NCBI GenBank assembly: GCA_963920765.1
Contig: OY987248.1
Location: 9,706,539-9,770,538, forward strand
Direction of reading: 5' to 3'
From: Ulota crispa
Lineage: Eukaryota > Streptophyta > Bryopsida > Orthotrichales > Orthotrichaceae
Length of the DNA stretch: 64,000 bases
Of the stretch, positions 16,817 through 48,840 are shown piece by piece. Below the pieces are notes generated by a model. That model ran no database searches, was not told the origin of the DNA, and was given only the letters and a program-made list of their open reading frames with translations. Within the stretch, counting starts at the first letter, position 1. Each line of letters starts with the position of its first letter. Position numbers and translations under genes: made by a program.

Positions 16817-18847
16817 CTAGAACGCCTCTTTAATGTACTTCTCAATATGCTTCACCATTGACGTGGTCCAGTGAGGTAAACAAGTCCTTTCCCTATTTTG
16901 CATGACTTCATCTAGTTTCCTAGTTCCAAACACAATACGCACAGCATCCCATATTGCCATTGCACTGTCTGCCATAAAACCCTTGAAGTTTGGATTTTCA
17001 ACACCAAATCTACCCATCACAGTAATAAGAGATTTCCAAAATTGCACTTGTATTTCTATATTCTTTGATTGCATATCACATGTGGCTATAGTCATGACCT
17101 TCTTATATCCTGAGTCGTATCCATGACATGCCATAGTCGTTCGCTCTTGCATGCATTTCACATGATTAAACATCATCCATGATAGTTCCAAGTCCCCTCC
17201 CACTTGCATCCTTCTAACTAGATCTACCCCACTTCTAGGTCCATCAGTGAACATTTTAAAGAGATATACTATTTCTTTTCTTTAATCGGAGAAGACACTA
17301 TTATGAATAAACTCAAACGTTGACAGTCTTGTCATTGTCATGATGTTGTCAATAATGCCTCTTTTATTATTTGATTGTAACTGTGAAATCACATTACAAA
17401 TGTTGGGACTACTCAAGTACTGAAATCGGTCCATGATCTCATTCCTACCATTATCATCAAGCATCTTTTTTTGACCATCCCTACTGTAACACAAGTGATT
17501 AGACAGGAACTTCTCCCTAATAGCCAACAAAATACCAAACTTTGTTGCTTTCGAGGTTCTAGCTACCTCTGCTGCAATTAAACTGTGAATTTCTTTTGCG
17601 GAATTCCTGAACAATCCCTTTGCTGCAAGGTGGCAATGATTTTCTAACTGAATAGCTGCCCTAGTCATGTTCTTCTTCTCACTATACACATAGTAAATTT
17701 GAGCATTGCACAACTTCACACAAACAAGAATCTGCTTACAGACCTTGCACACGATAGTACTTTCCTTCGGCGGTTCAACTGCAACAGCAAATGCAAATGT
17801 AGTACTTCCACTCCACTCTGTCTCATTTTGGCACTTTGCTCTCACCAAATAGTTGTAGTCTGGATTATGACATGCCAAATGTCCGGCACAAGTCGATTTG
17901 CGAAACTTAAGGTTACTCACGTTGTGAATATTTGTAGTTACTAGTTTACACCAGAGGTGTCTGTTGTAGCGTTTGTCTATTCCCTCCAAATTCTTAGCTG
18001 CACAAACAGATGCATTAGAACAACTTGGTGGTAATTTGAAGATGACATTGCCATCAAATAAAGGAGGGAGGTATTGTACGTGATGATGCAAAATAGTAGA
18101 GTAGTGCAAGGTAGATAGTTTGTTCATACAATGTTGCATGGCCGCTAATTGCTTCAAGCTATCAAAAATACTAAGTTCACCAATGGATTGTGGATGCAAA
18201 GGAGGGCGTGAACTAAAAGATTTTGCTTTAATGTCAGACACAGTGGCCGGCTACTTTGTCCCAACAACTGCTGTGACTATTTTTCTCAAAAACAATGCGA
18301 CAATGTCACAATAATCTCTAGGAGAAATAGCATTGCCTAAATCACTGGATAACTCAAGGACAAGAGAAAGTTTCTCAACTTTCATAGGACAAAGATGCAC
18401 TGGGATATGGACTGCTTCATCAATCATAGGAATTGCACTAGGGACTGGTGAAATTGGAAAATACGGCATATCTACACTGGATCCACTAGAGTACAGATGA
18501 GGCTTTTGAGTACAATGAGATGTGTTTGCTAATAAAAGACCATAAACACTGAAAGAACTAGAGAACAGGTTCCAAAAATCTTTGGCATTGTCCATTGACT
18601 TGGTAACCGGTTTGCATTGTAGCAATTCACCATTTCTTGATCTACTCTCTTCTTCAATGTAAACTAAAGTCTCAACAAAACAAAAACAAACATGAAGAAG
18701 GTGATTGGAAATTCTAGCTCTGCTATTACTATCAAGAGGAAGAACTAATGGGGTTTCGATACCATCAGCATGAATAAAAGCCATGGCCATAAGGAATTGC
18801 TTTATTTCATCAAAACAATATACAAACACAACACATGGACAATGCAA
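16817..18847 (-). pseudogene. MULE-like transposase, N-terminal half (zinc finger plus DDE core)
   Basis: A single frame runs about 677 codons and is broken only by a TAG at 18251-18253 and a TAA at 17282-17284, each explained by C-to-T change of a glutamine codon. The middle part (about 17600-18000) has the spaced Cys and His pattern of a WRKY-GCM1 type DNA-binding finger: LWCKLVTTN, CAGHLACHNPDYNYLV, CKVC and ENHCHLAAKG. Beyond the second stop come blocks typical of the plant MULE family, HVKCMQERTTMACHGYDS, NPNFKGFMADSA (a likely catalytic Asp) and CLPHW. Family assignment rests on these remembered motifs and is fairly secure for the transposase core, less so for the superfamily label. Confidence 0.65.
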
Positions 18848-19869
18848 AGAACAACGTCAACCACAAAGCACCCAAAATAGATTGAATGGGTCTTGATGGA
18901 ATGACTCTAAATAGAAAACCTTAGAAGGAAAATTCTTTACACGCTCTACTAGACAAGCTAGATACTTGACTGCGCTTGTCAGGAGTGCCCTCACAGATAG
19001 ATTAATACCAATTTCTAGTTACGTAGTAATATAATGAAATAAGTGATAAGTGACGGGTACTGTGGTAGGGGCAGTCATGAATTGAATTGTAACTAAATAA
19101 GATGATAGTATTGGAGGTGGAAATGAAATCCTGCACTGATACCGTCATCACTGAGTTCAAAATGCAATTAACACTTTGCAGTACCATTTGCAACAACAAC
19201 AAGTGTCACGCATTGAAAATGCCATGTATGATATGGCGCATTAGTTTTGACATCCTGCTATATGCACTTTGACACATTATTAACATAAACAAATATATTG
19301 TTGTAGATACAATCCTCATACTGGACTCAAGGATACGGAGTGAGAGAAATCTAATCCATCACAAAATCCATAATTTAACATAATATGTTTGAGTTTGGTA
19401 GTCCGCTCTTCATAATTGTCATGAGTCATCTTGCGCTAGTACAAATTAATATTTAAAGCCACTACATTGTAGGATCCAATTTTGTTTGGAGTTGGCCAAT
19501 AATGACGACAGTGACACTGGTCCAATCTCTACAAAATCAGAGGAATAAATCATGAGAATGTATGTACAGCAATTTTGACCTGACACTTGTCCAACCATGA
19601 TGTGTTAGTATTATATGATATGACTAACAATTCATCCAATTCAAATGAACTAGATCATTCAATGAGAAGTTCAATACAGAGGTACTTTTTCAAATTAACA
19701 AGGATGAATTGCAACGTGCATCCAATATCTATATGGGTGCATCATAGAATTTTGGGATACAATATCAGTTTAAGAAGTGTTGGCAACTTGTTTCATCACT
19801 ATGGTAAACTGACAGAGTGTTCTACGTCATGAGTGATATGTGGATTGCATCTGTATAGAGTTTCAATGC
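18848..19869. other. Gene-free stretch
   Basis: Only short frames without recognisable motifs occur. The sequence may contain the 5' non-coding part of the minus-strand MULE, but no TIR or TATA-like box could be assigned with confidence. Confidence 0.4.
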
Positions 19870-24850: not shown

Positions 24851-25005
24851 TTGATGGCTTGCGGTTTTCAGATGTCCTCTCCTCTTATTTGCGCTTTCAT
24901 AGCTATGCTTACTATTAGAATAAAAACTAACTACAACAACATAAAAGCACAAATGCCGACCAAAGTTGTTACTTCGGACGAGTTTAGGCTGTCGGACAGG
25001 ATGGA

Positions 25006-26810: not shown

Positions 26811-28345
26811 TCAAGTTTCACTATCACTGTTCTCCATTGTTCTTCGATTTAGAGGATTGAAGTGACTAGATCTACTGATTGTGGAATGAGAGGGACCTCC
26901 CCGATCAACATTTGCAATGCGTACATCATCATCAGCTGGTGCCTCATTGCATTCAGGATTGTCTTCATCTTTCAAACCCATAGAATCATCCTTGTTGTCC
27001 TCTCCAAATGCCTCACTAGTGTCCAATTGTGAGCTCTCATTGCGAAACTCAAGCTCATCTATTCCTTCTCTACGTATCTTGACAATCCTCTTATATCGCT
27101 TTGCTCTTGGGTCTTGCAAATCTGAATCCACGTGCGGGTCAGTGTAACCCCTTCTACATCCATTTCTTCCACTTCCTTCCCTCAAGAAGATATTATCCTC
27201 ATTATCAATGTCAAGATATGGAAGTATCTCATCAGCTAGCCTTCTTGCTCCAATTCCTTGAGTCTATGGCTGCTGAACGGGACCCAACATTTCTTCCTCT
27301 TCCTCTTGGACAATTTACACCATATTCACCCACAGCAATAGCAGGAAGCATTGGAGGGTTAATATTTTGAACATTGTTCCCCAATGCCACCAAGGTTTCC
27401 CCTATTGTTGTAGCAATACTAGTAATATTTGTTCTTGATTGCCTAAACATTACTGGAGGAGTATTAGGTACCACATCCCCGGATTGTGATGCGCTACTTT
27501 GTCCACAACGTACTACTCCATTACTGGGGTGCCTTCCATTGTTAACAAAGAGTGCCGATACAAGAACGTCTTTGTTTCTAAACATTTGGGGGGTGGAGCC
27601 TTGTGTAGCATCAATTTGTTGTCCAGATGGAGTGCTATTCCTTACTCCTCTTATTGGGGTTGATGTATTCGTGCATCTTAATGCAGTTGTCGTACTAAGA
27701 TGCTGGCATTTGCTAGGGCTAGACATTTGATATCCACCACATTTTGCAAGAATAATTTCAATATTTTGGGGCGTTGGTACTCCCAAATTCCCACCCTTGA
27801 CGTTAATATCCTACAATACGTTATTGTCAGGATGACCATTCCTCCTTGGAAGACAATTCTTTGTAGTCTCCCTTTCATTATTTTTATGCTCCTTAAATGA
27901 TGATGTATTGGACCCACTAGCAATGTCTACTGCATCAATGTTGTCACTGTCACCACCTCCTAAACAATTGCTTGGAGCAGGGCTGTAACGATTGGAATCG
28001 ATATCTCCATCACTATTGTCAAAGTCAAATTCACCCCTTCCCTCTCTGTAATATAATTGTGTGCGTCGAACATTGTCAGATTCTTCTTCCCACAAATCAT
28101 AATTGTTAAATGGACGTGGTATTTCTCTGTCCATATTACCATCTGATGCATTGTCATCAAGCATATCCTCATTATCAACAGTGTTAACTGTTAGACCTTG
28201 CAGAATGGGCGTTGGGGTGGGACCTACTTCTTCATCTTCAAAACCCTTTGATTGAATATTCCTCTCATACCATATAGCTAGATTTGCTCCTGGTTTCTAA
28301 CGAAGCATTTTGCTGTTGGTATAAATATATACCAAATCCTCTGCT
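26811..28345 (-). pseudogene. Long C-terminal tail of the hAT protein
   Basis: After a frame slip near 28350, KAEDLVYIYTNSKMLR continues the normal hAT C-terminus. Roughly 500 further codons follow in three successive open pieces (28164-27811, 27786-27232 and 27185-26811; the last is in a different frame). They are acidic and Ser/Asn/Thr-rich, with short basic patches such as KRYKRIVKIRREG. Most plant hAT transposases end soon after the dimerisation domain, so this is an extension or a second fused gene. No domain is recognised. Confidence 0.6.
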
Positions 28346-29521
28346 TTATCCGATGAGGCAATTCCGAGATTGATTGTGAACAAAAGAGTACATACTCCAA
28401 CTCCGTTCACAAGATGATGTTGAGCATATCAGCAACAACACATGCTTTGTAACTTTTGACAAAGCCACATCTACAATTTGATGCCACCATAAATGCGGTT
28501 GCATTTCATTGCCATCTATTTTTGGTGCCATTTGTGGATTGTATGGACCACTTTGTTCTTTGTATTGTGTTAATTCATATAGTACGATATCATAGTTTAT
28601 ACCTAGTATTCCTTCCATTTTATGAACCACTCAATACAAGGCTGCAAGGGCTCTACTATGTTCCCTAATAGCTGAAATATCTTTCAAATAAGGATTTAAA
28701 TAGGAAGTGGCATAATGGAGATCTTCAAACATCATACTCCACCTATCATCAAAATCTTCCTCCAACTTTGATGCAATTTGCTGAGGAAGTAGGAAAGGAG
28801 GGTTATTCAAAGAAAACACATGTCTCCTAAGATTTCTCATTATCAACCAGGCTTTCCCCATGGTTGGCTCTTTCTTGTCAAACACACGTAGCGCTTTTAG
28901 GATGTCTTCAACAATATGAATAAAGTTCTTGCAACAATTCCAAAAGCTTTGATCTTCAATGGCATCTCTCACGAGCATTGCCATAGTTGGTGCCCATATT
29001 TGGCTTTGTACTCTACTCTTGCTAGCAAAGAATTGTATGACATGTTGACGTGTTAACAAGAGTTGAAATTTAGGTTGCAATACAACTAGCTGGGAAAGCA
29101 TCAAGAAGCTTGTTGCAGAACGAGTCTCATTTGGTGTCAACAATTGCATGTTTGGACTAACTTCCCTTAGAGCTGCCATAGTCACATGATGACCCTTTAT
29201 GAACATGCATATTGTATGTGCTCTGGATATTAAGTTCTTGAAGTCTGGTACCTTGGCCCAATCTTCCAACATCAGATCCATACAATGTGCAGCACACCCT
29301 TGCTTGAAAATGTGTGGGTATGTGGCAACAACATCATCCATTGCTCCAAGCATGTTAGCCGCATTGTCGGTGCAAACTTGCACCATGTTCTTTGGTCCAA
29401 CCATCTCAATGAATACTTTCAACTCTCTCGCAATGTAGCTTTTGGTTTTTTTAGCTCCCGTTGTATCAATGGAACCTAGAAACACATCGTCGCTTGGACA
29501 AGACATCATAACATTCATCAA
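28346..29521 (-). pseudogene. hAT transposase core and dimerisation domain
   Basis: One frame of about 390 codons, broken by a TGA at 28631-28633 where CGA (Arg) fits. Upstream of its first Met the same frame reads FGVTICSDGWDNI, the DUF659 hallmark, then a TAG and a TGA in the codons just before PLMNVMMS. The core has VQVCTDNAANMLGAM, with the catalytic-type Asp of the TDNA box, and GCAAHCMDLMLEDW (the CAAH block). At the C-terminus come PHLWWHQIV and STSSCERSWSMYSFVHN, the classic hAT dimerisation signature. The product would bind terminal repeats and cut and paste the element in the nucleus. Assignment to hAT is certain from these motifs. Confidence 0.92.
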
Positions 29522-30005
29522 AGGTCAATTCTAAATGTTGTCCCATCCATCGCTACATATAGTCACCCCAAATGTCTTCACAGCAAACTTTGTTTTACTT
29601 TTTATTTGTGCTTCTATTTCCTTCTTCTTAGGTTCAATGAACTTTGTCCTAAATTGCAAATATAATGGGGGGTGATATTGACATCCAACTATGGATTTGG
29701 CCTTCATTGCCTCAATGAATGCCGGGTNNNNNNNNNNNNNNNNNNNNNNNNNNNNNNNNNNNNNNNNNNNNNNNNNNNNNNNNNNNNNNNNNNNNNNNNN
29801 NNNNNNNNNNNNNNNNNNNNNNNNNNNNNNNNNNNNNNNNNNNNNNNNNNNNNNNNNNNNNNNNNNNNNNNNNNNNNNNNNNNNNNNNNNNNNNNNNNNN
29901 NNNNNNNNNNNNNNNNNNNNNNNNNNNTGTCAATCTTGCACTTGAAGTGACTATTACATCACCTTGGCAACAATATTGAAGCAGTTCTTCACCCACATGA
30001 CTCAA
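29522..30005 (-). pseudogene. BED-like zinc finger remnant of the hAT protein
   Basis: Between 29928 and 30005 a minus-strand frame gives LLQYCCQGDVIVTSSARL, which resembles the CxYC..VxxxxxRLK core of a BED finger in decayed form. The next ~200 bases are unknown (N), so the second half of the finger cannot be read. Coding resumes before 29728. Position, immediately upstream of the DUF659 region, is exactly where hAT proteins carry this finger. Confidence 0.45.
29728..29927. other. Assembly gap, 200 N
   Basis: A run of exactly 200 N. The round number suggests a scaffolding gap of unspecified true size. It lies inside the N-terminal part of the hAT gene, and any frame that spans it is meaningless. 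Confidence 0.99.
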
Positions 30006-30979: not shown

Positions 30980-31573
30980 GATGTATTCAAAACATATAGC
31001 AAAAAGTGTTGGAATGACTTGAAACTTTCACAACATATATTAATAATGGCGTGTAACATGTGGGATTAATTTGGGATTAAATTGAAACATGGGTCTTGAT
31101 GACCCCTTGTGAGGTCAAAATTTTAAATAATTGCCAAAAGAAGAGATAGCGGGGGTTTTATTTAAATCACAAATGACAAAGTGTTGGAACAACTTGAAAC
31201 TTTTACAACATCTTTCAATAATGGTGTGTGACATGTAGGATTAATTTGGAATTAAATTGAAACATGGATCTTGTTGACCCCTTTTGAGGTCAAAAATTTA
31301 AATACTTGCCAAAGGAAGGGATACTAGGGGATGTATTCAAAACATATAGCAAATAGTGTTAGAATGACTTGAAACTTTCACAATATCTTTTAGTAATGGT
31401 GTGGGACATGTGGAATTAATTTGGGATTAATTTGAAATATGGGTCTTGGTGACTCCTTGTGAGGTCAAAATTTTGAATATTTGCCAAAGGAAGTGATAAT
31501 ATGGGATCTATTCAAAACATATAGCAAAAACTCATGGAATGACTTGAAACTTTCACAATCTTTCAATATAGCC
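30980..31573 (-). repeat. ~175-bp tandem repeat, array 1 (inverted relative to arrays 2 and 3)
   Basis: Units start at about 30981, 31155, 31331 and 31506, giving spacing of 174-176 bp; the last is partial. Shared words on the plus strand are ACTTGAAACTTTCACAA, ACATGTGGGATTAATTT, GAAACATGGGTCTTG and GAGGTCAAAATTT. Unit 2 begins with a different variant (TTTATTTAAATCACAAATGAC) from units 1, 3 and 4 (GTATTCAAAACATATAGC). This sequence is the reverse complement of the arrays at 40 and 49.5 kb. Confidence 0.88.
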
Positions 31574-31993: not shown

Positions 31994-34236
31994 CTACTCT
32001 AAAGACACTGGATCATTCTGCGTGCCACTAGGTCTTGCTTTGTTGTTATCGTTTCCTTCAAGAAGGGCACGTACATTGACGTCCCCATCACGTGGGCGTA
32101 ATTCCATTCTTTGAACTTGTGAATGGATTTGCCGTGCTAGCCTGTCCACATCAAGGATAGCCCTCAAGAACTGTGAGTTTTGTAGCTCTTGTAGAGCTCT
32201 TTGAACATTCAGACTGTGACCTTCCACCAAAAAATCAATTGTATCATCCTTGAAATTCTCCCTAAACCCTCAACTTCTTGTTGTACATTCATTGCGTGAT
32301 TTTTTAGGCGCCAACTCCAAACCAAATCCTCCTCGCATTTACTAGGTATCTCTGGTGCATTTTCCTTATTCAACTCCCAACTACAAGGCATGTATGTACC
32401 AAGACCAAATAGTTGATACAGTTGTTCTTGAAATGGGGCCTTGCACACCAGTCATTGTCTACAGTTCACCATGATACTTATTAGGCAAAATGGATGGTAC
32501 ATATGGGTGCATGTGCCCAACTGCACTCCACCCTCCGGACCAAATCCGTTAAAACAAATGGGACATTTTGTACCGTGTTCCACAAAAGTTGACAGATGTG
32601 GCCACAGTTTGACCTTTTCCGTCTCATGGGCTGACATGTCATTCTCAAAAATCCAACCATTTTTTGCTCAATCTATGGTTGTGTCGCTCGTCCCCAATGG
32701 TTTAGTTGCCATGTGATCCATGTCAAACATTTTGTCCACATGGGTCCATGAGGTAAGACCAAAGCACCGTTGTTGATTGTTTATGAAGTACTCGTTAGCA
32801 ACTTTGTCAACTTCATTTGCCATTTGTTGACTGCGGTCCACATGGAAGAGACATGCCAATTTCCATTGGTAGTATTGCTCTATAATTCTTTTGAGCTTTT
32901 TTTGCAATCCAACATTTTTGGCTTTGTCTTTTGCAAGCTCTCTCACACTCTCTACAGCTTCACCACTCTTTGCTATGAGAGTTTGTAAACTTGGCTGCTC
33001 CCTAGACTCTTGTGACAGTGGAAACGACAATGAGTTTTGTGTTCTAGAGTTTCCCACTTCTGCAATTGGTGGGATAGACCGTACAGTGAGGGGGTTGTTG
33101 GGGTGTATGTTAACCGTATGTGGATTCCGAGGATTCATTTCTATAAGTGCATAGGTGACATCTTCCACCACGCAATCAAGTTCTACTCCACTTGCTTCAA
33201 CCAGGTTTGTACTTCTGAACTGAAGTCCTTCAAGAAGGTGCAGCTTCCTTGTCAATTCCTGCACTATTCCTTGCAAATTCCTGCACTAATCCTTGCAAAT
33301 TTGCATTCTCCTGTTGCAATGTTGACATGGTAATGTTCTTCTCTGCATCGGTTTTGCATATTCTAGCAAAATCTACATTCAAATAAAGAATGATATCATT
33401 CTTCAATGCAATGTCATCCTGTAATTTTTTAATGAGAGCGTTCTTAGAGTCAATGGTCATGCCATTGCCGCCAACGTTTGAAGATGGCACATCATCTTCT
33501 ATGTCTTCATCATCTAACGTTTCCATCATTTCAATGCTAGGCCCTCCTATTTCTGTAACTACATAAGTAGGGTGTATTGCCTTAAATGTTGCTGCAGTTC
33601 TCCTACGTTTAGCTCAATTAATGGCGCAGACACTTCTCATAGGCACTGGCGTTTGAGTTTCATCAGAATTGTCATCTGTTGCAAAGTCTGCTATCTCATA
33701 CTTCTCTGATGACTTCTTTGTTGGCTTTGTACACTTCAACCCTCCGTTGGAAAATTTCTTTACTCCCATTGGGATAAATCCATCACGCAGATGTGGAACA
33801 TGTACTTTTCTGCTTACACCCTTTATGATGGACCAATCCACCTTTCTTTGTAACTTCAACTCTGCCCAAACTCCTCTTGCTATGAAAAAAAAGACTTTGT
33901 TATGCTTCACATGGGGAGTGTTGTACATGACTTGGTAGACTTCTACGCAACAATCTCTGAATGCTACATTGTTGCAAAACTTCAAATTGGCCTTATTGAA
34001 GCGGCGGTGAAAATTGTATCAATTTTAAGGGAAAACCTTGGAAATGTGGCACCAATCAATGTAACCTGCGCAATTCTCATGAGACCAAGGTAATGGAATG
34101 TCTTTGTAGCCTTCAAACGCAATCTTTGCTTGATTGCATAGAGCGTGCATCCTTTTTTTTGCTTCTTTCCATGTTGTTCCCTATTTTTATCTCTCTCTTC
34201 TTTTCATAGTTTCTTGGGTGTAATTGCAACAGACAT
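31994..34236 (-). pseudogene. RING-H2-like zinc-finger and coiled-coil protein, copy 1
   Basis: The minus strand encodes about 750 codons of a protein found twice in this window (copy 2 at 50859-53173). Order: a short basic N-terminus from ATG 34236 with KKRM; a Cys-rich domain with IDWCHISKVFP and NKANLKFCNN; the best conserved block RGVWAELKL, DGFIPMGVKKFSNGGLK; an acidic linker (EDIEDDVP); a long coiled coil (33276-33529 and 32668-33276); and a C3H2C3 finger at 32565-32443, KCPICFNGF then GTCTHMYHPFC then LVCKAPF, with a stop at the seventh ligand. After the finger comes LVWSWRLK and a tail ending NDNNKARPSGTQND. In a working protein such a finger would suggest a ubiquitin ligase, but this is inference. 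The frame is broken in several places. It sits behind GC-rich island 3 and a TATA-like box. Confidence 0.6.
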
Positions 34237-35710: not shown

Positions 35711-35900
35711 TCCTCCCCTCCTTTGTCATTTGCCAAGCACATCTCCCAATGCTCTACGCATTAGCTTGCTCTACGGCCTGTATTTCACAGGATTGAAGGA
35801 ATTATGTGCTTGGCGCCTACTTCATACCAACTTATTGCAATCTTTTTTTTAAACTCATACTTTAATCTCCTTTCATTGAATCATTGTTGTCGTTGATATT

Positions 35901-36923
35901 ATGTCTACAACAACTGATAGTTCAGCAAATAAAGGGAAACGCTCTTTTTACAAGGATTTAGATATGTTGGAGGAGGTTCTCATTCCAATGGTGGCTACAA
36001 TGGATGTAGCAATGGCATCAAACTCAACTACACCGGTAACTAGCAGCAGGAAAAAAACAAAGGTAAAAAACCCCCATTTGTCTACAGCTCTGTATCTAAA
36101 CAAACTCAGATTAATTGCAGTTGATTTCTATAATGCACGGAAGAATGACTCACTTGAGAGGCAGTACTTCAAGAATAATGAGTTGGGCTATAACAAGTTC
36201 CTTGAGGACTTGAAACAAGCAATTGAAGATAGGCTAGATCAATCAGAGGAATTCAAAAATTACGTAGACTTTTGGAATTACTCATAGTGGATATTAGACC
36301 ACGTGAAGCAAGTGACAACAAATATTGAGGCTATATATGGTTATGTGGCAAAGGACGTGGACCTTGGTCTAGACTTGACTCATGAAGATTTTGTTACACG
36401 TCTGCAGTATGTACAGAAGGAAAATAAGAGGTTCTAAACTGCTCTTATACTCGACCATATCCGTATAGATTTACCGCAAAAATTGCTTTATTAGACCGTA
36501 TTGAAAAAAGTCTTATGGAGTGGCTACCTGAGTTCGCTAAAATTGTATCCATGCCAAGTCGTATGGCAGAAAGAGCATATGGACTATGAAAAAAGTTTGA
36601 ATTTCCAAGTGTATTACAGTTCCAGCACATGTGGATTTTGTAGGGAAGAGCTTGGAAGAACAAAACCACAAGGAAAAAAAGCGAGAAGTGCTAGTAGAAG
36701 CAATGACATGTCTCGTCCAGCACGCAGACATCATCTGCCTTGTTTATTTGAATCCAAATACTATGGAGGCATATTCTATTTAGTAGAACCTTGGATCGTT
36801 GGAAAGTTTCCTCAAGTTGTACAATAATCATGTAATAGAAGAACTGAAGAATGAAAAAATAATACATGACAAAACATCTGGGCTAACGCGAGAAGAGTTG
36901 AGATGGATCATTACATATCGCGT
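35901..36923 (+). pseudogene. Kinase-like element protein, N-terminal part
   Basis: The first frame (35901-36287) gives 128 codons starting MSTTTDSSANKGKRSFYKDL, with a basic SSRKKTKVKN patch and a helical, charged second half. The same frame continues past its stop with WILDHVKQVTTNIEAIYGYV and DVDLGLDLTHEDFVTRLQYV. After a frame slip comes TAKIALLDRIEKSLMEWLPE and AKIVSMPSRMAERAYG. The last piece (LKNEKIIHDKTSGLTREELR) runs into the 2.15 kb repeat at 36924. The N-terminal half has no domain I recognise. It probably precedes the kinase fold whose C-lobe resumes at 39.1 kb, because strand, order and the break at the repeat agree. Confidence 0.5.
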
Positions 36924-39070
36924 TGTCGGGTTGAGAGGAGCGTGCCTTGGGAACATGCAGGATGTCTTGCTGCGTTCGTGCATTGCTGACTAAAATCATC
37001 TTTGGTCTTGATTTTCATTTTTCAAATTTTTAGTCTTCAGTCCTTTATTGTCCTATCATGTGGCTGGCTCTAGGAATATAAGGATCAAGGTAGGGATAAG
37101 AGCCCACTACATACGAGACGGGTAGATTAGGACAGCAAATACAAGCTGCCATTTGTATGACAGGATCATAAATTCAAATTCATGATCTGCTGGCCAAAAT
37201 TTTAGATTGTGAAAACAAAACAAATCTTAACCATGTGAATGATCAATCCTACTTTATCACCTTGATAATAAATAAGGTTAAATTTGATTTAACCCAAACT
37301 ACCCGCAACAAGGTTTACAAAACAGAATGGAAATAAATTAACAAACAAGCTTCCAAAATCGGCTAAGAATAACAAAGCCACATTCCACACATACATAAAA
37401 AATAAACCCAAAACATTTCTCTTGAAATCTTGATATCTTCAAATCTTCAAGTTTTCATGTCTTCAAGTCTTTATGTTTTAATAAAAATAATAGGAAAAAT
37501 CACAAACAACAAATTCTAAAAAAGCTGCAGCCTTCTATTTAATGCCACAGATGACTCAAATATCCAAATGCTAAGTGTAATAGCAAATTGAAAAGCGCTT
37601 CTAACCCTCTAATATTTCTCTAAATTTCAACTCAATTTAGGCTACTATCTTAAAGTTATGCGGGTTCAAAATAGAAGCTCTTCTTCCTACTTGCAAATTA
37701 AACACTGTCTCTATAAACCTCTATAACTTTTATTCTACACACCACTCATAGAAACATAATATTAATTTGGAAAGGTAATACCATTGGCTACAATTTATAA
37801 AATTTTCATTTCAAAATAAAACTCTGTCCAAAAGTTCTAGTCAATCAAAATGTGGGTCTCAATTTTTTAGAGAGCACCCAAACCCCCAACTTTTACACAC
37901 TATAACTTCTTCAAAAAGACTCCTAATGAAATAATTAAAGAGAGTTTGAAAAGCTATGACAACAAACTATCACTCTTAAAATTTTAAAAAGAAAATTTCA
38001 TATTTTTCAAAAATTCTAACTCTTCAAAGTTTCAGCCTTCTCATAACAAAAGAACAACCACGTTCAATCCTTCACACCTTTATAACTTTCTCCTCCAAGC
38101 TTCAAATCTCAAGTTTAAAATTTTTTTAGAAAGCTAAGACTAAGATGAACACTTTTTTTTGTTGCAAAATGATATATAAATCATAAGCTATGGCTTATCA
38201 AAGTCTCAGCCTTTCTTCATAATTTGGTTTTTTGACTCAAAAATTCAAACACTCATATTTTTTGCATCACAACTTCAAATCAAACTTGCAAATTCATTTT
38301 GAAAAGGTAATCATATAAGAAACAATTTTTTCAAATTTTGATTCAAAATCATGTGTATACAAAAAGTTCTCTTACATCAAAGTTTTGAGATTTTTTCTTT
38401 CTTCTCACCAATACTCATACACTAACTTCCAACAATTAAAGATTCTCTCCTCCTTAATTTTGACTCTATCTATGGTAAAGAGGTGAGGCACATCAGCCCA
38501 TGCTCCTTTTTATCTTAATCCCACCATAGATGTTAAACCTCTTTCTCTTTCACACTTTTTCCATTTACTTTTAAATCCTTAGTATTTTTTATTCAAACAA
38601 AGACAAAATATATGAGCCTTCCAAAACATCTAGATAAACATATAAAAATGATTAAATTACAAAATAAACATCACCGTAAAGTAGCCACGTGCTCTTGTGG
38701 GTATATAATAGCGTCAAATATTTGTCTTCAGTCGCCAAGTCGTGGAGTTGGTTGGTTAAAGAAGCGGTCATTTCTGGCCGCCCACCAGTTTGGATTCAAA
38801 CTCCATCAGACTCGTCAAGCTGTGATGGCGGCCTACGGCTTGGCAGCTAATGAAATAGGAAATTGGCCTTGCCAACCCGCTACCTACCCCCCTGAGCTGT
38901 GCATGTGATAAGACGGCGCGGTGTACTGTAATCTATGGCCGCTGCGCTGTCACTAAACCGTGGTTTTCACCACGACCACCTTTTTTGCCACAATTGTTGA
39001 TTTATTAAAATCAACACAAACATAAATAAATAATGAGAATCTATATGATGGAAAGATTTCTATCATGACA
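36924..39070. mobile_element. 2.15 kb LTR-like repeat, copy A (probable solo LTR)
   Basis: Begins TGTCGGGTTGAGAGG and ends GACA, the TGTC...GACA form usual for LTRs. It is alignable over its full length with copy B (42859-45015). Copy A has lost more of the CG-rich words seen in B, so it looks older. Its flanks (GCGT and ACGT) are close to, but not exactly, a 4-bp duplication. It interrupts the kinase-like unit. No internal retroelement genes were seen next to it, so it is taken as a solo LTR of unknown superfamily, a fossil. It contains a tRNA-like segment near 38.73-38.83 kb. Confidence 0.6.
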
Positions 39071-39603
39071 ACGTGAATCAAACAAAATTAGTATTATTCT
39101 TGCTTATTATTGTAGGAAAGTGTCATGCAGCAAATTTCCTTTACAATGACCTCTCACCTTCAAATGTCTTGTTACATTATGATAATTGGAAGGAAGGTAC
39201 CATATACATAGGTATATGTGATTGGGGCATATCTAGCCGAGTCGTGGAGAGCCAGCTTTCCAAGTATGGATACCCAAACCTGGAAGCGGCATGGAAGGTG
39301 CAAAAAAAATAAAAGTTCGCTGCTTCGGAGTTGTTCTATGTTTATAGGCCGTAAGGGTCTGAAAACTCCATTGATAAAGTACAGCAAAAGCATATGTATT
39401 CAGTGGCTGTGGAGTCATTTGTTGTGGTATGGATAGCCAATAAAATGTAGAAGAGACATTTTAGTGTAGGGGATTTCAAAACAAGACCTATAATTCTAGA
39501 TAGGTTTGAATAGGTTTTACAAGACTTGCAAAAAGAAACCACGCATGACAGGACCACAATGATGGACACTCTACAAGTGCTGTCAAGTGCTCTATACAAC
39601 TAG
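39071..39603 (+). pseudogene. Protein-kinase C-lobe of the kinase-like unit
   Basis: One frame holds kinase landmarks in the right order and spacing. NFLYNDLSPSNVLLHYD (about 39130-39183) is a catalytic loop in which the Asp (39148) and the Asn four residues later are kept while HRD has become YND. IYIGICDWGISSR has DWG in place of DFG (39220-39228). FAASELFYV stands where APE is expected (about 39316-39342). A helical region with YSVAVESFVVVWIANK follows. The frame starts after ATTATTGTAG (about 39104-39113), a good splice acceptor, and has several stops. A kinase in life would transfer phosphate from ATP to protein. Here the N-lobe is missing or lost at the repeat insertion, so it is a dead copy. 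Subfamily unknown. Confidence 0.6.
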
Positions 39604-39984: not shown

Positions 39985-40603
39985 CAATGGATGACCTTCA
40001 ATAATTGAAAATATTAAAATGCTTCCAAAAAAAATTTATATATGTTTTGAATAAATCCCCCACTATTCTTTCCTTTGGCAAGTATTTAAAATTTTGACCT
40101 CACAAAAGCTCACCAAGACCCATGTTTCAATTGAATTCCAAATCAATCCCACATGTCACACACCATTATAGAAAGATGTTGTGAAAGTTTCAAGTCATTC
40201 CAACACTTTGTCATTTGTGATTTAAATAAAATCCCCACTATCCCTTCTTTTAGCAATTATTTAAAATTTTGACCTCACAAGCGGTCATCAAGACCCATGT
40301 TTCAATTTATTCCCAAAATAATCCCTCATGTCACTCATCATTATTGAGAGATGTTGTAAAAGTTTCAAGCCGTTCCAACACTTTTTGATGTGTGTTTTAA
40401 ATAAAACACCCACTAACCATTCCTTTGGCAATTATTTAAAATTTTGACTTCACAAGGGGTCACCAAGACCCATATTTCAATTTATTTCCAAAATATTTCC
40501 ACATGTCACTCATCATTATGGAAAGATGCCATAAAAGTTTCAAGCCATTCCAACAATTTTTACATATGTGTTTTATATGGAACCTCCACTATCCCTTCCT
40601 TTG
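39985..40603 (+). repeat. ~175-bp tandem repeat, array 2 (left part of a split array)
   Basis: Units recur at about 40057, 40233, 40408 and 40582, spacing 174-176 bp. Common words are CACTATCCCTTCCTTTGGC, TTTAAAATTTTGACCTCACA, CACCAAGACCCATGTTTCAA and GATGTTGTGAAAGTTTCAAG. The array stops within a unit at CCACTATCCCTTCCTTTG (40586-40603) and resumes with the same 18 bases at 49488, showing that a LINE was inserted into it. Confidence 0.9.
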
Positions 40604-40638
40604 AATGCTTTCTCGGCTGTGTGGGGTTGCCCCTGGAT

Positions 40639-40651
40639 CCGCCATAGGCGG
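40639..40651. repeat. Hairpin near the LINE 3' end
   Basis: CCGCC, three bases, GGCGG. It lies 36 bp inside the 3' end of the LINE and may be part of a 3' RNA structure recognised by the reverse transcriptase, as in LINEs that lack poly(A). Inference only. Confidence 0.5.
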
Positions 40652-40769
40652 TTTTCTTAATATTGAAATTTTTTAAACAATGGAGGCAAGATATAGTTGT
40701 ATGCTCCTGAACCTTTAGTGCAAAATTGGGGCGACCACTCTCTTGCAAAAGTACTTTCTAATTCAGCTA

Positions 40770-42858
40770 CTTTCTTTGCGTTGCTATAGTTTCATGAATA
40801 GACTGCCAAATGGCCTGACCTGCATGCAAAGTTGATACCCAAGCCATGCCCAAGACCTATTCACCTCCATACTGAGTTTGGGAGAACTTGCGGATACAGC
40901 GAGCCAGCCATATTTGCCAAATAATACAACCTTTCAAAATATCCCAGGGTTGAAACTTGTACAAGTACTTTGTTACTAGCCTTGTGCTTGCCACCTAGAA
41001 TTCCCCCATTAGGATCTTGTCCATGCTGTTGGTCTTTGGTACCGTGCTGGCCCTTGCGATGAGATTAAATCTCTGCCACACTTCTTGAGCAAAAGGACAT
41101 ATCTAGAATAAGTGTATTGTCAATTCCATGAGGTAGGCACATAGGCTGCAGCAGGTGTTGTATTGATCTCCGACGTATCAGAGTTTATCTTCCGTGATCA
41201 GACCCTTACTGAGAGCTACACATATTAAGGCCGCCTCTTTTTGTGGTTTAGTGTTGTGCCATATGAACTTGAACAATGTGTACACCTGCTCTGTTGAGAA
41301 TCCAAGTCTAGCCAAATTTATCATACATGATGACTTTTCCCCCACTGTCTTGAGTCTATAGGTATAGCTGTGCTTTGCTTGGTATGTGAAAAATGGGGCT
41401 TGCTTGAGCCTTCTTGTAGCTCCGCACGATCATTCCGCCAGGTCTCATTGTAGACTAGCTACCATATCATCGGGGTACGCCCACACACTGTCCATGCCTT
41501 CTGGAGGCAATGGTGGGTTACACTTGGCAAACATTTTGAGTTCCAAATCCCAGAGCATCCTGGCTTGTTGCAAGTGGATGTCGGGAAGAGGTTGAGTTCT
41601 CCTTTGTTCTTCAAGAACTCCCAAGCTTCCTTTCTTGTTGAACTTCAGAGCTGGGATTTCATCACTTCCGACAAACGTGACTAGATAGAACGCCCCTTAT
41701 GGTTCGCAGTGCACCCAGTCTCCTTTCTTCCATTGGACTTCACGCTCACATGGATCCCAAGGTATGTGCTCTATGCACTTCCGACGTTTCTCCTTTGTGT
41801 TCCTAGCAATGACACTCTGTAAAGGTAGTTTTAGTTTAATTTCATGTGCCGAGATCCAATCGTTGCCCTCTTTGTCCCTTAGGTCCGCTATGCATTGGAA
41901 CCCGGCCCTAGCCTAGAGGTGCAGCCTCAATTGGTCACCAAACCTTAATGGTGTGTTTGGTACTTCTATGATCATGAGATTTCCGTATATGGGTTGGCAA
42001 AGGATCTGGTCCTTATCAGCCGGTTCCGCCCTGATCAAGTTTCCTTTAATTTTTACAAATGCTCTGAAGCACTCTTGCATCATGGGGAATAACTCCTTCT
42101 TGTTCTTTACCCCCTTTCCCATGAAAAGCCAGCCTGGGGCGTGGTGCCATCGAGCATTTTCCAGCGGCCTATAGTTGAAGATCTTATCCTTCATCAAAAT
42201 TTTCCAGGGCTTGTTCCTCAGTGCTAGTCTCCTAATAACCAGCTTAGTGATTAAAGCTTGTAATTGCAGAAGAATGTCCAGCAACTTAATACCACCAAGT
42301 TGGAGAGGTAGTATTGCTGTGTTCCACTTCACCTTAAAGTATGCTCTCCCTTTGTCTCGGCCTGACCATACATATGTGCATAGAAGGGACCATATTTTGT
42401 CACAAACACTTCTGTCTAAGCTGCAGCAAGTAGCCGTGTATCCACACGTGGCCAACATAATTAGGTTGCTTATCTGGATCCTTCCAGCAAGCGGCAATTT
42501 CTTTGTAGCCCATGAGCGTAACTTGTTTTAAAGTAGTATCATTAGCGGCAGTGTATTGGTTCCCTTGTCGAGTCCACTGCCTACCAAGGGTCCCAGATAT
42601 CTTATTCCCTTCCTTGTCTTAGCCCACTTCAGACTAATATGATTGCCCTAGTCAAAGTTCCTTGGTTTGGTAGAAGCTCCCACGGCATGAGATTTAGTCT
42701 AGTTAATCTTTGAGCCAGATGCCAAGCAGAAACACTCTAGCACCGCATGGGCACGCTCCAGATTCCTAGGCAATCCCTATAAATATATTGCTGTATTGTC
42801 AGCATACGATGAGTCTTTGAATATGTGGTCGCGTAGAAGCACGAATCCCTTGATCCGG
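40770..42858 (-). pseudogene. LINE ORF2 reverse transcriptase, C-terminal part with zf-RVT
   Basis: Directly after the inserted repeat the minus strand reads SSYADNTAIYLQGLPRNL; YADN stands where the catalytic YADD is expected. The open frame 42497-41913 has PLAGRIQISNLIMLATCGY, VWSGRDKGRAYFKVKW and LGGIKLLDILLQLQAL, the thumb and connection regions of plant LINEs. Near 41.1 kb, in broken frames, CCSLCAYLMELTIHLF then CPFAQEVW form the zf-RVT motif. The continuity of this protein across 42859-45015 proves that the repeat inserted into the LINE. Confidence 0.85.
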
Positions 42859-45015
42859 TGTCGGGTTGAGAGGAGCGCGCCTTGAGAACACGCAGGGTGT
42901 CTTGCTGCGATCGTGCGTTGTCAACTATATCGTTTTCAATCTTGATCTTCTTTTCAAATCTTCAGTCTTCAGTCTTCCGTTGGCCTATCTTGTGGCTGGC
43001 TCTAATGGTATAAGGGTCAAGGTAGGGATAAGAGCCCACTGGATACGGGACAGGTAGATCGGGACAGCAGACACGAGCTACCGTCCGTATGACGGGATCC
43101 TAAAATCAAATTCACGATCTGTTGGCCAAAACTCCAGATCGTGAGAACAGAGCAAGTCTTGACCATGTGGGTGATCAATCCCACTTCGTCACCACGACAA
43201 TAAATGGGGTTAAGTTTGGTTTAACCCAAACTGCCCGCAACAAGGTTTACAAAATAGAATGGAAATGAATTGACAAACGAGCCTCCAAAACCGGCTAGGA
43301 ATAACAAAGCTACATCCCACACATACATAAAAAATAAACCCAAAACATTCCTCTTGAAATCTTCATATCTTCAGATCTTCAAATTTTCATGTCTTCAAGT
43401 TTTCAAGTCTTCATGTTTTAATAAAAACAATGGGGAAAATCACAAATAACAAGTCATAGAAAAGCAGCGACCTTCTATCTAGTGCCACAGATGGCTCAAA
43501 GATTCAAATGCTAAGTATAATAGCAATTTGAAAAGCTCTTCTAACCTTCTAACATTTCTCTAAATTTCAACTCAATCTAAGATATCGTCCAAAAGTTATG
43601 TGGGTTCAAAGTAGAGGCTCTTCTTCCTCCTTACAAACTAAACACTGCCTCTATAAACCTCTATAACTTTTGTTCTATACATCACCCATAGAAACGTGAT
43701 ATCAATTTAAAAAGATGATATCACTGGCTTCAATCCATAAAATTTGCACTTCAAAACAAAACTTTGTCCGAAAGCTCTAGTCAATCAAAGTGTGGGTCTC
43801 AATTTTTTAGAGAGCATCCAAACCTGCAACTTCTACCCACTATAACTTCTTCAATAAAACTTCAAATGAAATGATTAAAGACAATTTGAAAAGCTATGAC
43901 AACAAACTATCACTCCTAAAAATTTGAGAAGAAAATCTCATGCTGTCCAAAAGTTGTAGCTCTTCAAAGTCTCGGCTTTCTCCTAACAAAAGGGCAGCCA
44001 CCTCCAAACCTTCACACTTCCATAACTTTCTCGTCCAAGCTTCAAACCTCAAGTTTAAAGACTTTCTAGAAAGCCAATACTAAGATAAACACTTTTTTCA
44101 AATCTTATTGCAAAATGATATACAGATCATAAGTTATGGCTTGTCAAAGTCTCAGCCTTTCTTCATAGTTTGGCTTTTTGACTCCAAAATTCAAACACTC
44201 TTAACTTTTGCATCACAACTCCAAATCAAACTTGCAAACTCATTTTGGAAAGGTAATCACACAAGGAACAACCTCCTCAAATTTCAATTCAAAATTACGT
44301 ATACATAGAAAAAAATCTCACCTCAAAGTTTCGGGATTTTTCCCCTTCTTCCCACCAACACTCATACACTAACTTCCAACAACTAAGGGATCTTTTCTCC
44401 ATAATTTCGACCCTATCTAAGGTAGGGAGGTGGGGCATATCAGCCCATGCCTTCCCTATCCTAACCCCACCATAGATGCCAAACCCTTTTTCCTTTCACA
44501 CCTTTTCTATTGACTTCTAAACCCTTAGTATTTTTATTCAAATAAAGGCAAAATATATGAGCCTTCCAAAACATCTAGATAAACATATAAAAATGATTAA
44601 ATTACAAAATAAATGCCATCATAAAGTGGCCACGTGCCCTTGCGAGCATATAATAGCGTCAAACGCTTGTCTTCAGTCGCCAAGTCGTGGACTTGGTTGG
44701 CTGGAGAAGCGGTCGTCTCTGGTCGCCTGCCGGTCCGGGTTCGAATCCCATCGGACTCGTCGAGCGGTGATGGCGGCTCGCGGCTTGGCAGCTAGTGAAG
44801 CAGGAAATTGGCCCAGCCAACCCGCTACCTACTCCCCTGAGCTGTGCATGTGACAAGACGGCGCAGCGCACTGTAATCTATGGCCGCTGCGCTGTCACCA
44901 AACCGTGGTCCTCACCACGACCACCCCTTTTGCCTCAACTGTTGATTTATTGAAATCAACACAAACATAAATATATAACGAGTATCTACATGATGGAGAT
45001 ATCTCCATCAGGACA
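42859..45015. mobile_element. 2.16 kb LTR-like repeat, copy B (probable solo LTR) inside the LINE
   Basis: Starts TGTCGGGTTGAGAGG and ends GACA, with CCGG directly on both sides (42855-42858 and 45016-45019) as a 4-bp target duplication. It is alignable end to end with copy A at 36924-39070. B keeps more CG-rich words, so it is the younger of the two. LINE ORF2 continues on both sides, so B inserted after the LINE. No gag or pol was seen with it. It is taken as a fossil solo LTR of unknown superfamily; a large non-autonomous derivative is the alternative. Confidence 0.68.
44676..44755 (+). ncRNA. tRNA-derived (SINE-head-like) segment inside LTR-like copy B
   Basis: GGTTCGAATCC (44738-44748) is a perfect pol III B box and T-loop, flanked by GGTCCG and CGGACT, which can pair as a T arm. 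About 40 bp upstream GTGGACTTGGTTGG resembles an A box. A complete cloverleaf is not apparent, so this is not called as a tRNA gene. The matching place in copy A (about 38792-38804) is decayed. It belongs to the repeat itself, since both copies carry it. Confidence 0.45.
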
Positions 45016-45048
45016 CCGGTGCCTTGTGTCTCCAACAGTGTAACTTAA

Positions 45049-45984
45049 CTAGTCTAAGGTGACTATGAACAAGAAGGGCGCTAGGAGGCAGCTTTGCCTA
45101 ACCGAGCGTGACAGCTCAAAAAATTCTCCATGTTCACCATTTACAAGGACCGCTGAAGTTGCGTTCTTGTACAACGCCCTCACATTGCAGATGTAGTCTT
45201 TATGGAAGCCAAGTTTTTCCAACGTCACTTCCATGAAGTCCCAGCTAATCCTATCATATGCCTTTTCAAAATCAAGCAATAGTAATGCCAAATCCTGGTT
45301 TGAGTGCTCCGCGTAGTGGATTGATTCCTGTGCCAAAAAGATGTTGTCAACTATGCATCTACCTTGCACAAACTTGGTCTAATTTGGCCGCATGATCTTT
45401 GCTAAAATACCTTACAATTGCGGTGCTAGCACCTTTGCCACTAGTTTATAAAATGAGCCCAGTAACGTAATAGGGCAATAGTTGGAGATATTGCTAGTGT
45501 CACCACTTTTGTGGATCAAAGTGATGAGCCCTCTACTCAACAATGTACCCAAGTCTCCTATTTCAAGAATTTCTGCTATGGCTAGGAGGATGTCCTGGTC
45601 CATGTCTCCTATTGTGCCTGCATACACCTCAGATGGTACCTCGTCAACTCCGGAAGCCTTTCTTGTGGACAGAGCTTTCATCGCTCCCTTGAGTTTCAGC
45701 ATTGTCAATGGTCTAATCACTTTTTGGTTGTGTGCGACCGTGAGCACAGATAGCACACTACCTAACACTTCCATGCAAGCACCTAGCACTTCCTCACTGA
45801 TCTGATCTTCAATGTACAGGGTCTTGTAAAAATTGGTGACCGTGGCTAGCTTCTCTTGTTGCGTTGTGTAGAGGGCGCCGTTCACCTCCAACTGGAGGAT
45901 GTGGGTTTGACCCCTCTTATCCCTGATCGCGCTGAAGCAAGCTTTGGTACATTGGTTACCCTTATGGGACCAGTTTGCGGCCAT
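45049..45984 (-). pseudogene. LINE ORF2 reverse transcriptase, first part
   Basis: The frame 45984-45412 includes ARKASGVDEVPSEVY-like sequence (KASGVDEVPSEVYAG), GLITLIHKSGDTSNISNYCP and ITLLGSFYKLVAKVL, the early RT motifs. The next frame (45369-45049) has LLLLDFEKAYDRISWDFM and SRSVRQSCLLAPFLF. Both are degraded forms of standard L1 RT blocks. The catalytic box lies beyond the inserted 2.16 kb repeat, at about 42.8 kb. Confidence 0.9.
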
Positions 45985-46399
45985 TTTATGGTACCTGTTA
46001 TCAAGGATGGCTAGTGAAAGCTTGTGAAGTGATGTCTTTGTAGCATTCTAGGAGGCCACGACGCTAGTGTCCTCTGGGTACCTAATCAAGTATGATTCCG
46101 CGTCCTTCACTCGCTTGAGGGCATCTCGCTCTTGTTGGTACCACTTGTTGCATCTTTCCTTCTCCAAGTCTTGGTTTTTGTAATGATTCTTTCTTGGGCC
46201 AAGTCTTTTCTCTCAAGCTAGGTAATACCCTCCTCCTGATCATGGCTATTCCATGCATTGAGCAAGCGGTCCTTGTAATTCTTACAAGTCCATACGAATG
46301 CTTGCATGTAGCTATGTCTGCTCATTTTGTGGCAAATAGGGAGGAGCTAAAGGGACAGCGGGGCATGGTCGGAAATCCTAGTATGCAGGTGGGTGTGGA

Positions 46400-47132
46400 A
46401 CACCCCTTCTTGCTCCTTCAAGCATTGGGATATATAAACCCTATTGATCCTTGCGCTCCTTCTTTGAACGCCATCTTGACTGTTGTCCCTTGTGAATTGC
46501 CTCTACAAAGCTGCCTGTATGCTATCCAACATAGACACATCCCTCATCTCGTAATGGTCAAGCAGCCGTACCTAGGCCACCTTCCCACTTCTTGCTACAT
46601 GACGGCAGATTCTAGAGTGATTCCACCTGTCGTTGGAGGCCTTTGTCATGTTAAAGTCACCGACGAGTATGAACTTGTCACTTGAGGCGCCAGCATCTAC
46701 TATTGAGTTCCACAGCCCCCGTCTCTCCCTTGACAAGCAATGTGCATCAATGTTAATAATAGTTACTAATGCGTTGTTCTCAATGTAGATGCTCACATAT
46801 TGCGCTCTATCGGGAACTAGAATAGCCTTTGCATGGATACGTGTGGTTAATTCTGGTGCCAGAAGGATTGCCGTCCCAGCCCTCCATCTTCCACTATCAG
46901 CGTTCAGTAGTGCCGGGTTCCAAAGCTTCCGTCCTCCTACATATGGGAAGCTTCTACTGTGATTTCTACATTGATCATCCTGCATCCAAGGTTCTTGCAA
47001 AAGAATCATCTTTGGTGGTGAGGACATTCTCTCGAAACATCTTTGCATATGTACTTGCATTTGAGCTCCTTGAGCTCTAGTGCTAGCGCCTTGTATGTTG
47101 AATGAGGCTATGGTTATCCCTTCTTCCATCAA
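46400..47132 (-). pseudogene. LINE ORF2 endonuclease domain
   Basis: From Met 47132 the frame shows ITIASFNIQGAS, then KMILLQEPWM, WRAGTAILLAPEL, a Tyr-Val-Ser-Ile strand, and FILVGDFNM. These are the apurinic-endonuclease motifs of L1-type LINEs; the usual LLQET is LLQEP here. In another frame INRVYISQ and TRISDHAPL supply the SDH motif near 46400. This domain would nick target DNA to prime reverse transcription. Confidence 0.85.
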
Positions 47133-47995
47133 AGGGATTGAGCTCCTTTTGGACTTTGCATGGTATTGGCACTTATTCTAGCAGATGTCAAAACTGCTGT
47201 CAATGATGTCGAAGGGGAAGCCGCGGGGGTTCTTGGTTTTTTCCTAAGCTGCTGAGGAGATATATTCAGGCTAGGTATCCAATCCACAATGTCTAGAATT
47301 GTTCCCTAAAGACCGGCACTATCTCTGAACAAGGTGTTGGCCATGTCCCTTCCCTTGCCGCTAGCCAATTATGAGATTTTGCCGCTCTTTATCCAAGCCA
47401 TGGGTATTTCCATCCTAGCTTTGGACTTTGGGGCCACAAGTATAGATGCAAGGATTGTCAATTCTTGAGCATTCTCATCACCATCCCACCGTGCTATCCA
47501 ATTGATCAATTCCCAGTGTTGCAATCTAGACGGTTTCTTTAATCTCTCTTGCATGTTTTCTCAGAGGCTTGCCAAAATTCTGCCTTTTAACATAGTCACT
47601 CCTTGTTCTTGAGGTGTGAAAGAGATAGGCATGGGGTCAATCAAGCTAAGGGGCTCTCCTCTCTCAAGCAAGAATTCTATCCCTAGCTCATTTTTTGTGT
47701 ATGTAATGGACCATATTGTAACGTACTCCTCCCTTTGTGTGTTGGAGGCTTCATTCCTGACTAGGAAGGTATCTTTGAGCTCTTTCTCTATAAAGGATGC
47801 CCAAAATTTGGCTGTTGGCCATGAGGAGGATCTATCCTATTTCTCTTGTTCCCAGAATCTGCCCTCTATCGGACCTTGTGGGTCAAAATTCTCAGCCCTT
47901 GCACTGCCCTAGTGTGGCTTTTACCTTTCTAGTCTCAAAAATTTACGAGGATGGGTTGGGAGCTCCACAAAGGGTAGTATCGGGAAGTTGTCTAC

Positions 47996-48840
47996 CTAGT
48001 CCGCCGTTGAATTCTCCTCCTGATCCACATGAACCTGCTTGTTGACCTCCTCACACAATAGTGCATATGGATTTTGATCCGTTGCTAGGCATGGGGAGGT
48101 CTGACCTTGTTTCATCTTAGCCATGGCCTTTGTCTTCTCTATCTCTTGCCATTCTGCTCTACCCTTCCACAGTGACTCCCTACCTAGCACCAGATCAAAC
48201 TTCTCTTGATCATGTCCCGACTCCTCTTCTTGCTTTATACATTTGCCAATCTCAACTGCTTGTCTGTCTTTTGGTGGAATTCCACGTTTGCCCAATAAGC
48301 AATCCCAGGTTTTGTGGCCAAACTGTTGGCACCTGCTACATTGGTTTGGCAAGCCTGCAAACAACACTCTTTGCTTGTATAGTTTGATTTCCTTTGCATT
48401 GTCACATAACACGTGGATCTGTAAGACTCCTGGTAGTTTAGAGAGGTCCTTTGCTACTACATTCACAATAAGCCTTGAAAGTCTTTTGCTGGCAATGGAA
48501 GTGTCCTCGATAGAGGTGACCCGTCCTACCATTCCCCCCAGGCTCCTGAGCCATGCCTCCAAAGCTAGCTAAGGATCCAATTTTGGAGATTGGACTCTAA
48601 TAGTGGGATTTGGCTTCCGGATAGGGGTTGGGATGACTGGTTTTGCAGCAAAGTTGTTGTGCCAACAATTGAAGCTGATGACCTTACTTCCCATCTCAAT
48701 TCTCCAATGCCAATATATTTCATAGCTCCAGATTCTTTTGAGAATTCTAGCCTAAATTGTCCATTAGCTAGCATCTACATTGATGTGAAAGAGTCACCAA
48801 TGTGTGTTCAAAGGAAATTGAGTAAGTTAGAGTGACCTGG
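47996..48840 (-). pseudogene. LINE ORF1 (nucleic-acid-binding, DUF4283-like with zinc knuckle)
   Basis: Two frames (48774-48565 and 48562-47996) follow each other with a frame slip. The first has ANGQFRLEFSKESGAMKYIG, resembling the DUF4283 fold of plant LINE ORF1. The second has LPGVLQIHVLCDNAKEIKLY and NQCSRCQQFGHKTWDC, a CCHC knuckle of the form CxxCxxxGHxxxxC. The product would coat LINE RNA. The polar tail ends near 47996. Further upstream to about 49440 only broken frames are visible. Confidence 0.75.

Follow-up and report, generated by a model that had tools for sequence, protein, structure and literature searches.

The locus described here raises the question of what kind of genetic unit holds two related genes for proteins with a RING-H2-like zinc finger, which lie on opposite strands of one stretch of 64,000 nucleotides of Ulota crispa DNA (the window). 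We consider it very likely that the two genes, copy 1 and copy 2, are accessory genes B and A, respectively, of a giant hAT transposon with a conserved gene set that occupies positions 24961-54106.

The RING genes of the window

Copy 1, or gene B (31994-34236, minus strand), has its N-terminal block at 33683-34015 and its RING at 32431-32571; in copy 2, or gene A (50859-53173, plus strand), the corresponding regions are found at 51090-51347 and 52319-52459. Both are multi-frame reading frames interrupted by stops and frameshifts, and the relatives inspected are likewise broken. Sequence comparison of the two showed 44% identity over 86 amino acids in the N-terminal block and 41% over about 200 amino acids in the coiled coil and finger, and both end with the C-terminal motif NNNK..PS.TQ, which bears out the homology claimed in a first-pass annotation of this DNA. 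The C3H2C3-type finger proposed there was also recovered, and an alignment of 24 RING copies, from which two unrelated weak rows had been removed, includes 11 that keep all eight RING-H2 ligands (C-x2-C..C-x-H-x2-H-x2-C..C-x2-C). The seventh ligand of copy 1 is lost to a stop and the first ligand of copy 2 is lost as well. Pfam zf-RING_11 matched copy 1 at 1.2e-5 (best score 25.3 bits, as compared to a gathering score of 27 bits) and zf-RING_2 matched a relative at 3.1e-4, likewise below the gathering score. Since these scores lie under the cut-off, we call the finger RING-H2-like.

The N-terminal domain gave no match in the PDB at E 1 and only stray matches in Pfam (E 0.06-0.13), and a structure model built from two sequences was poor (pLDDT 57.6), so that DNA binding by this domain is a guess. 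A search for Rfam RNA features gave no matches at gathering scores. Elsewhere in the window, an open, GC-rich RING gene of 560 codons (2661-4340, minus strand; zf-C3HC4, 3.9e-6) has a host-like appearance and lies outside the element.

A gene family that accompanies hAT transposase and kinase genes

The genome (275 Mb in 157 contigs, with the window in contig C7) was searched with parts of both copies. At least 132 matches were obtained with the coiled coil and RING of copy 1, at least 105 with the N-terminal block and at least 37 with a piece of copy 2. After merging, the RING family comprises at least 115 loci on 11 contigs, so that the dispersed, multi-member family that had been proposed is real and copies are far more numerous than two. 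The matches occur in pairs or triples at regular spacing, which indicates a larger unit.

Merging gave 93 hAT loci (from 134 matches), 115 RING loci (from 132) and 88 kinase loci (from 107). A RING locus was found within 20 kb of 61 of the 93 hAT loci (shifted controls: mean 6.5, maximum 14) and a kinase locus within the same distance of 71 of the 93 (mean 4.6, maximum 13). Both partners were present within 20 kb at 57 of the 93, and the remaining 36 hAT loci are without one or both partners inside this distance. The controls consisted of 500 shifts by 100-500 kb within the same contigs. Transposase, kinase (on the opposite strand) and RING gene is a frequent order, and order and strand recur in many units, with the kinase running against the shared direction of transposase and RING, at distances of about 4 and 11 kb.

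That unrelated hAT, RING and kinase genes merely came to lie together by chance in repeat-rich regions is exceedingly improbable. The loci are indeed clustered on C11 and at the end of C6, where chance neighbours are likelier, but the 57 hAT loci with both partners compare to a mean of 3.2 and a maximum of 9 in the shifted controls, the order and strand of the genes are repeated from unit to unit, and wherever ends could be read the termini and target duplications enclose the gene set. As to the clustering itself, the density of hAT loci on C11 (6.3 Mb) is 3.3 per Mb as compared to 0.1-0.7 on six other contigs, and 15 of the 17 hAT loci of C6 are found in its last 4 Mb (beyond 18.7 Mb). These dense regions are perhaps sex-linked or of low recombination. 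Two units of C6, at about 22.56 and 22.65 Mb, are exact mirror images by match coordinates, with identical scores, and may represent a recent inverted duplication or an assembly artefact.

Transposase, ends and gene content of the element

The hAT element that holds copy 1 also contains, some 2.3 kb from this gene, a decayed hAT transposase (28219-29725, minus strand) which matches DUF659 at 3.1e-27. It contains ICSDGW (29543-29557), CTDNAAN (29354-29371) and SSCERSW (28397-28417), which we take to be the three hAT catalytic motifs (D, D, E). The C-terminal dimerisation domain Dimer_Tnp_hAT was detected in a relative on C10 (1.2e-8), so that the classification as hAT transposase is based on DUF659 and SSCERSW in the window and on the dimerisation region in the C10 relative. 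The N-terminus of the window transposase possibly falls in a run of 200 N (29728-29927). Downstream of it there are open frames (26811-28296, minus strand), of which the scanned piece 26811-27263 gave no family match. Many hAT transposases in the genome share 34-48% identity with that of the window. The family had been described as one without a transposase. This holds for the genes themselves, neither of which contains a transposase motif or is part of a transposase protein, and it fails for the element, in which the DUF659 transposase is present. Three adjacent open frames elsewhere in the window (16817-18856, minus strand) presumably resemble a decayed transposase of another kind; two pieces of them were scanned and gave no significant Pfam match. 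Similarly, frames upstream of gene B in the unit at C11:6.14 Mb (L028:428-1202, minus strand) have what we take to be a transposase-like look and gave no Pfam match.

The limits of the element became apparent from a break just past gene A, which occurs at the identical point in four window-type copies. The 8-mer beyond this breakpoint, ATGCCGAC (54107-54114), has one other exact occurrence in the window, at 24953-24960, where it adjoins a matching terminus; the single second occurrence at that place indicates that 24961-54106 is one element, flanked by a perfect 8-bp target site duplication. The left terminal inverted repeat CAAAGTTGTTACTTCGGAC (24961-24979, plus strand) pairs with the right one, CATGGTTGTTACTTTGGAC as read on the minus strand (54088-54106), at 16 of 19 bases overall and at 14 of 15 from position 5 on. 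Shared terminal repeats and target duplications, which the first-pass annotation had proposed to look for, were thus found, and the two copies, which had been supposed to be separate dispersed members of the family, share a single element whose terminal repeats enclose both. A duplication of 8 bp is the typical length for hAT transposons. At an intermediate stage the window hAT was regarded as a separate insertion, the gene order being unlike that of the first giant elements; this was overturned by the shared ends.

Ends were also read in related elements. A common left end was found by comparing four related units (on C2, C4, C6 and C10), those on C4 and C6 being read in part. The C10 element measures 20.6 kb and has a perfect 8-bp duplication, CATACTAG, the C2 element has one matching at 6 of 8 positions (both read by eye), and a relative at C11:5300181-5319140 (18.96 kb) has one matching at 7 of 8. 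The terminal repeats are short at the ends of the C10 and C2 elements as well. The terminal pattern occurs at 2431 places in the genome with at most 3 mismatches as compared to 414 for the reversed control. Given this excess, small non-autonomous relatives with the terminal pattern probably form a large family in the genome.

The window element measures 29.1 kb, of which about 18.1 kb remain once two later insertions are subtracted, and contains the DUF659 transposase, a first 175-bp tandem array, gene B, a kinase-like gene, a second array and gene A. The elements on C2 and C10 have the order RING gene alpha, 175-bp array, beta, DUF659 hAT transposase, gamma, inverted array and kinase-like gene. 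The paralogues beta and gamma carry the same N-terminal block as the RING genes (L011, L012, L016, L017, L025, L026), and no RING was found in the pieces of them that were searched. Such a size of about 18-21 kb and a multi-gene content are unusual for hAT, and could point to some other giant mobile element or integrated virus that holds a hAT insertion. We regard this as very improbable because it is the outer ends that bear the 8-bp duplications in four elements (perfect in two), because no inner pair of ends was present in the window by this element's own terminal patterns, and because no relative turned up when viral contigs were searched with one RING query. A viral origin was dismissed as well: among four proteins compared to PHROGs there were two weak matches (E 0.0076 and 0.0095, the latter to a serine-threonine kinase family), and viral contigs gave none with that RING query.

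The kinase-like gene is recognized in two parts. Its N-terminal part (35892-36819, plus strand) shows weak matches (E 0.002-0.006), and its C-lobe (39079-39426, plus strand) matches the C2 relative with an E-value of 4e-19 and has the motifs NDLSPSN and DWG, to which relatives add APEL. A piece of the C2 gene matched Pkinase at 1.9e-7, with 31.2 bits just short of the cut-off of 31.7; the C4 piece scanned matched no Pfam family, and a search with a kinase piece in the PDB returned no chain at 0.001.

Between the two parts of the kinase gene lies a 2.15-kb insertion (36924-39071) with the TGT...ACA ends of a solo-LTR-like sequence, which is absent at C6:11443984 and C11:5310535. An earlier description of this repeat by odd inverted flanks was dropped, as a TGT...ACA solo LTR fits. 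The second insertion is a LINE-like element of 8.9 kb inside array 2 (40604-49484, minus strand), identified by an Exo_endo_phos endonuclease (3.7e-6); two further frames of it were scanned and had no Pfam match. It holds another copy of the 2.15-kb repeat (42856-45015), a sequence that is found twice in C2 as well. Neither of the two insertions is present in the relative at C6:11.44 Mb, which shows that both arrived later. Copies 1 and 2 do lie on opposite strands and 19 kb apart (start to start), as first described, with about 11 kb of the sequence between them consisting of these later insertions.

Inverted 175-bp arrays and the orientation of the cassette

Array 1 (30980-31558, minus strand) is inverted with respect to array 2, which is split by the LINE-like element into a first (40038-40603) and a second part (49485-50071), both on the plus strand. 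Of 36 array clusters, 32 have a hAT, RING or kinase locus no more than 10 kb away, where controls averaged 2.1 and reached at most 10, the clusters being hand-grouped from at least 137 matches, with 40 of 87 candidates scored. Two units, at C2:0.22 and C9:1.13 Mb, showed no detectable array. The 175-bp consensus sequences of window-type (19 units) and giant-type elements (21 units) are 83% identical, and the RING proteins of these two types are about 37-40% identical.

The order in the window and at C6:11.44 Mb is A, array, kinase, B, array, and the unit at C11:5.30 Mb has the segment flanked by the arrays in the opposite orientation. Judged by match order, 4 of 12 readable units have the state of the window and 8 the other state. 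This count excludes C3:23.86 Mb, where the order is unclear, and units with a single RING match; the cassettes of the window, C6:11.44 and C11:5.30 were fully checked in sequence, a few others in part. In a tree of gene A a single clade of the four window-state units is rejected (p-AU 0.002) and the best tree requires 3 changes of state, with the states having been assigned from match order after an earlier tree had been seen and with one row of the tree being long-branched. Thus, the cassette between the inverted arrays exists in both orientations, which are intermixed on the tree. The trees of genes A and B agree, which indicates that the A/B pair travelled together.

Codon positions and the origin of the accessory genes

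Substitutions were counted by codon position, where a shared substitution is one present in two or more copies and counts refer to alleles, not to events. For gene A (12 rows) shared substitutions at positions 1/2/3 numbered 147/116/213 (n=476, p 2e-7) and for gene B (6 rows) 30/16/57 (n=103, p 3e-6). Private substitutions of gene B were evenly spread (50/41/43, n=134, p 0.61), and those of gene A (108/76/110, n=294) deviated at p 0.02 due to a deficit at position 2. Of the 22 shared changes in the alpha group, 13 fall at the third position (p 0.04), and its private changes are evenly spread (p 0.75). Within the six closest A rows the signal is weak: the third position has 55 of the 153 private changes, an even spread (p 0.73), and shared ones (29/15/28, p 0.08) are at position 3 not above position 1. 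The tests for the kinase and beta gave no significance, and for gamma and the transposase the three rows each were too few for counting shared changes. Shared changes favour the third position and private ones do so little or not at all, which suggests that the RING genes worked before the copies inserted; the copies look like working genes of the element up to that point.

The main rival to a regulatory role is that a hAT transposon on a single occasion picked up host genes for a RING ligase and a kinase, which then multiplied as passengers through transduplication, with no role in transposition. Capture by a hAT has a precedent in the histone H3 gene of a 9.5-kb DUF659 hAT in Pseudocercospora (PMC6710886), and the broken state of every copy inspected would suit passengers. 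However, passengers are expected to decay and the RING genes show protein constraint that predates insertion; moreover, the gene set has been kept through hAT lineages with transposases of 34-48% identity, and paralogues occur within elements (A and B; alpha, beta and gamma). We therefore hold passenger capture to be rather unlikely. The suggestion in the first-pass annotation of a captured ligase-like gene carried by non-autonomous elements stands insofar as the gene was multiplied as cargo of a mobile element; in place of capture by non-autonomous elements, a conserved accessory gene set of an element with its own transposase is the better reading.

Possible role and comparison with known systems

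Our best guess, by analogy, is that the accessory genes serve regulation of the element or anti-silencing through the arrays. The transposase would have moved the element by cut-and-paste. With a basic Cys-rich N-terminus, a coiled coil and a RING, the RING proteins would most probably be E3-type regulators that self-associate and bind DNA or chromatin. They may bind the 175-bp arrays of their own element, as is suggested by analogy with VANC of VANDAL21, and together with the kinase could protect its expression from silencing by the host, a role that VANC has for VANDAL elements. Recombination between the inverted arrays could flip the middle cassette of gene B and kinase. The most specific version of this proposal, a giant hAT with its own set of ubiquitin ligase and kinase that recognizes the arrays and defeats silencing, and in which inversion of the cassette would switch the expression of the accessory genes, we consider distinctly unlikely. 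Repeated inversion of a cassette would, in our judgement, be unusual for a eukaryotic DNA transposon.

Elements of the hAT superfamily are usually pictured as small, one-gene transposons. The element described here shares with hAT transposons of the Ac/Tam3/Hermes type, in the DUF659 branch, the DUF659 and dimerisation domains, the D-D-E motifs, the 8-bp duplication and short terminal repeats, whereas its about 18-21 kb and four to five genes set it apart from a typical hAT. It also resembles, by description only, Crinkler-type modules, in which a kinase domain is reportedly carried by transposable elements. A search of titles and the beginnings of abstracts in one open-access literature collection yielded no report of RING and kinase genes carried by a hAT, and in the main text of a review on plant gene capture neither hAT nor kinase nor RING occurs as a whole word (PMC13317346).

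What is already known is that DUF659 belongs among the hAT transposases, as stated in PMC3985635, and that a hAT may carry a foreign gene, as described in PMC6710886, which also gives the size of hAT elements as typically about 5 kb, with 7.1 kb cited as the upper end and 9.5 kb for the H3-carrying family. The Pseudocercospora fijiensis element is similar in having DUF659, a non-transposase gene, many decayed copies and an 8-bp duplication; there one housekeeping gene was captured, whereas here several genes are found across diverged lineages, with signs of constraint. Among such known elements, the giant multi-gene hAT with conserved RING and kinase accessory genes appears to be a novel form. 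If the element goes unrecognised, its RING and kinase genes may get annotated as host genes.

A further parallel is VANDAL21 of Arabidopsis, a member of the Mutator superfamily, in which the motif bound by VANC is arrayed in non-coding tandem repeats (PMC5735166). Like VANDAL21, the present element combines a transposase with accessory genes and non-coding tandem repeats; it differs in being a hAT, the likeness being one of architecture. An 18-21 kb lineage that keeps RING-type and kinase genes, with constraint on the former, would show that plant cut-and-paste transposons, as with VANDAL, can have complex gene sets, and the giant hAT lineage would offer a second, independent system for studying the action of transposons against silencing.
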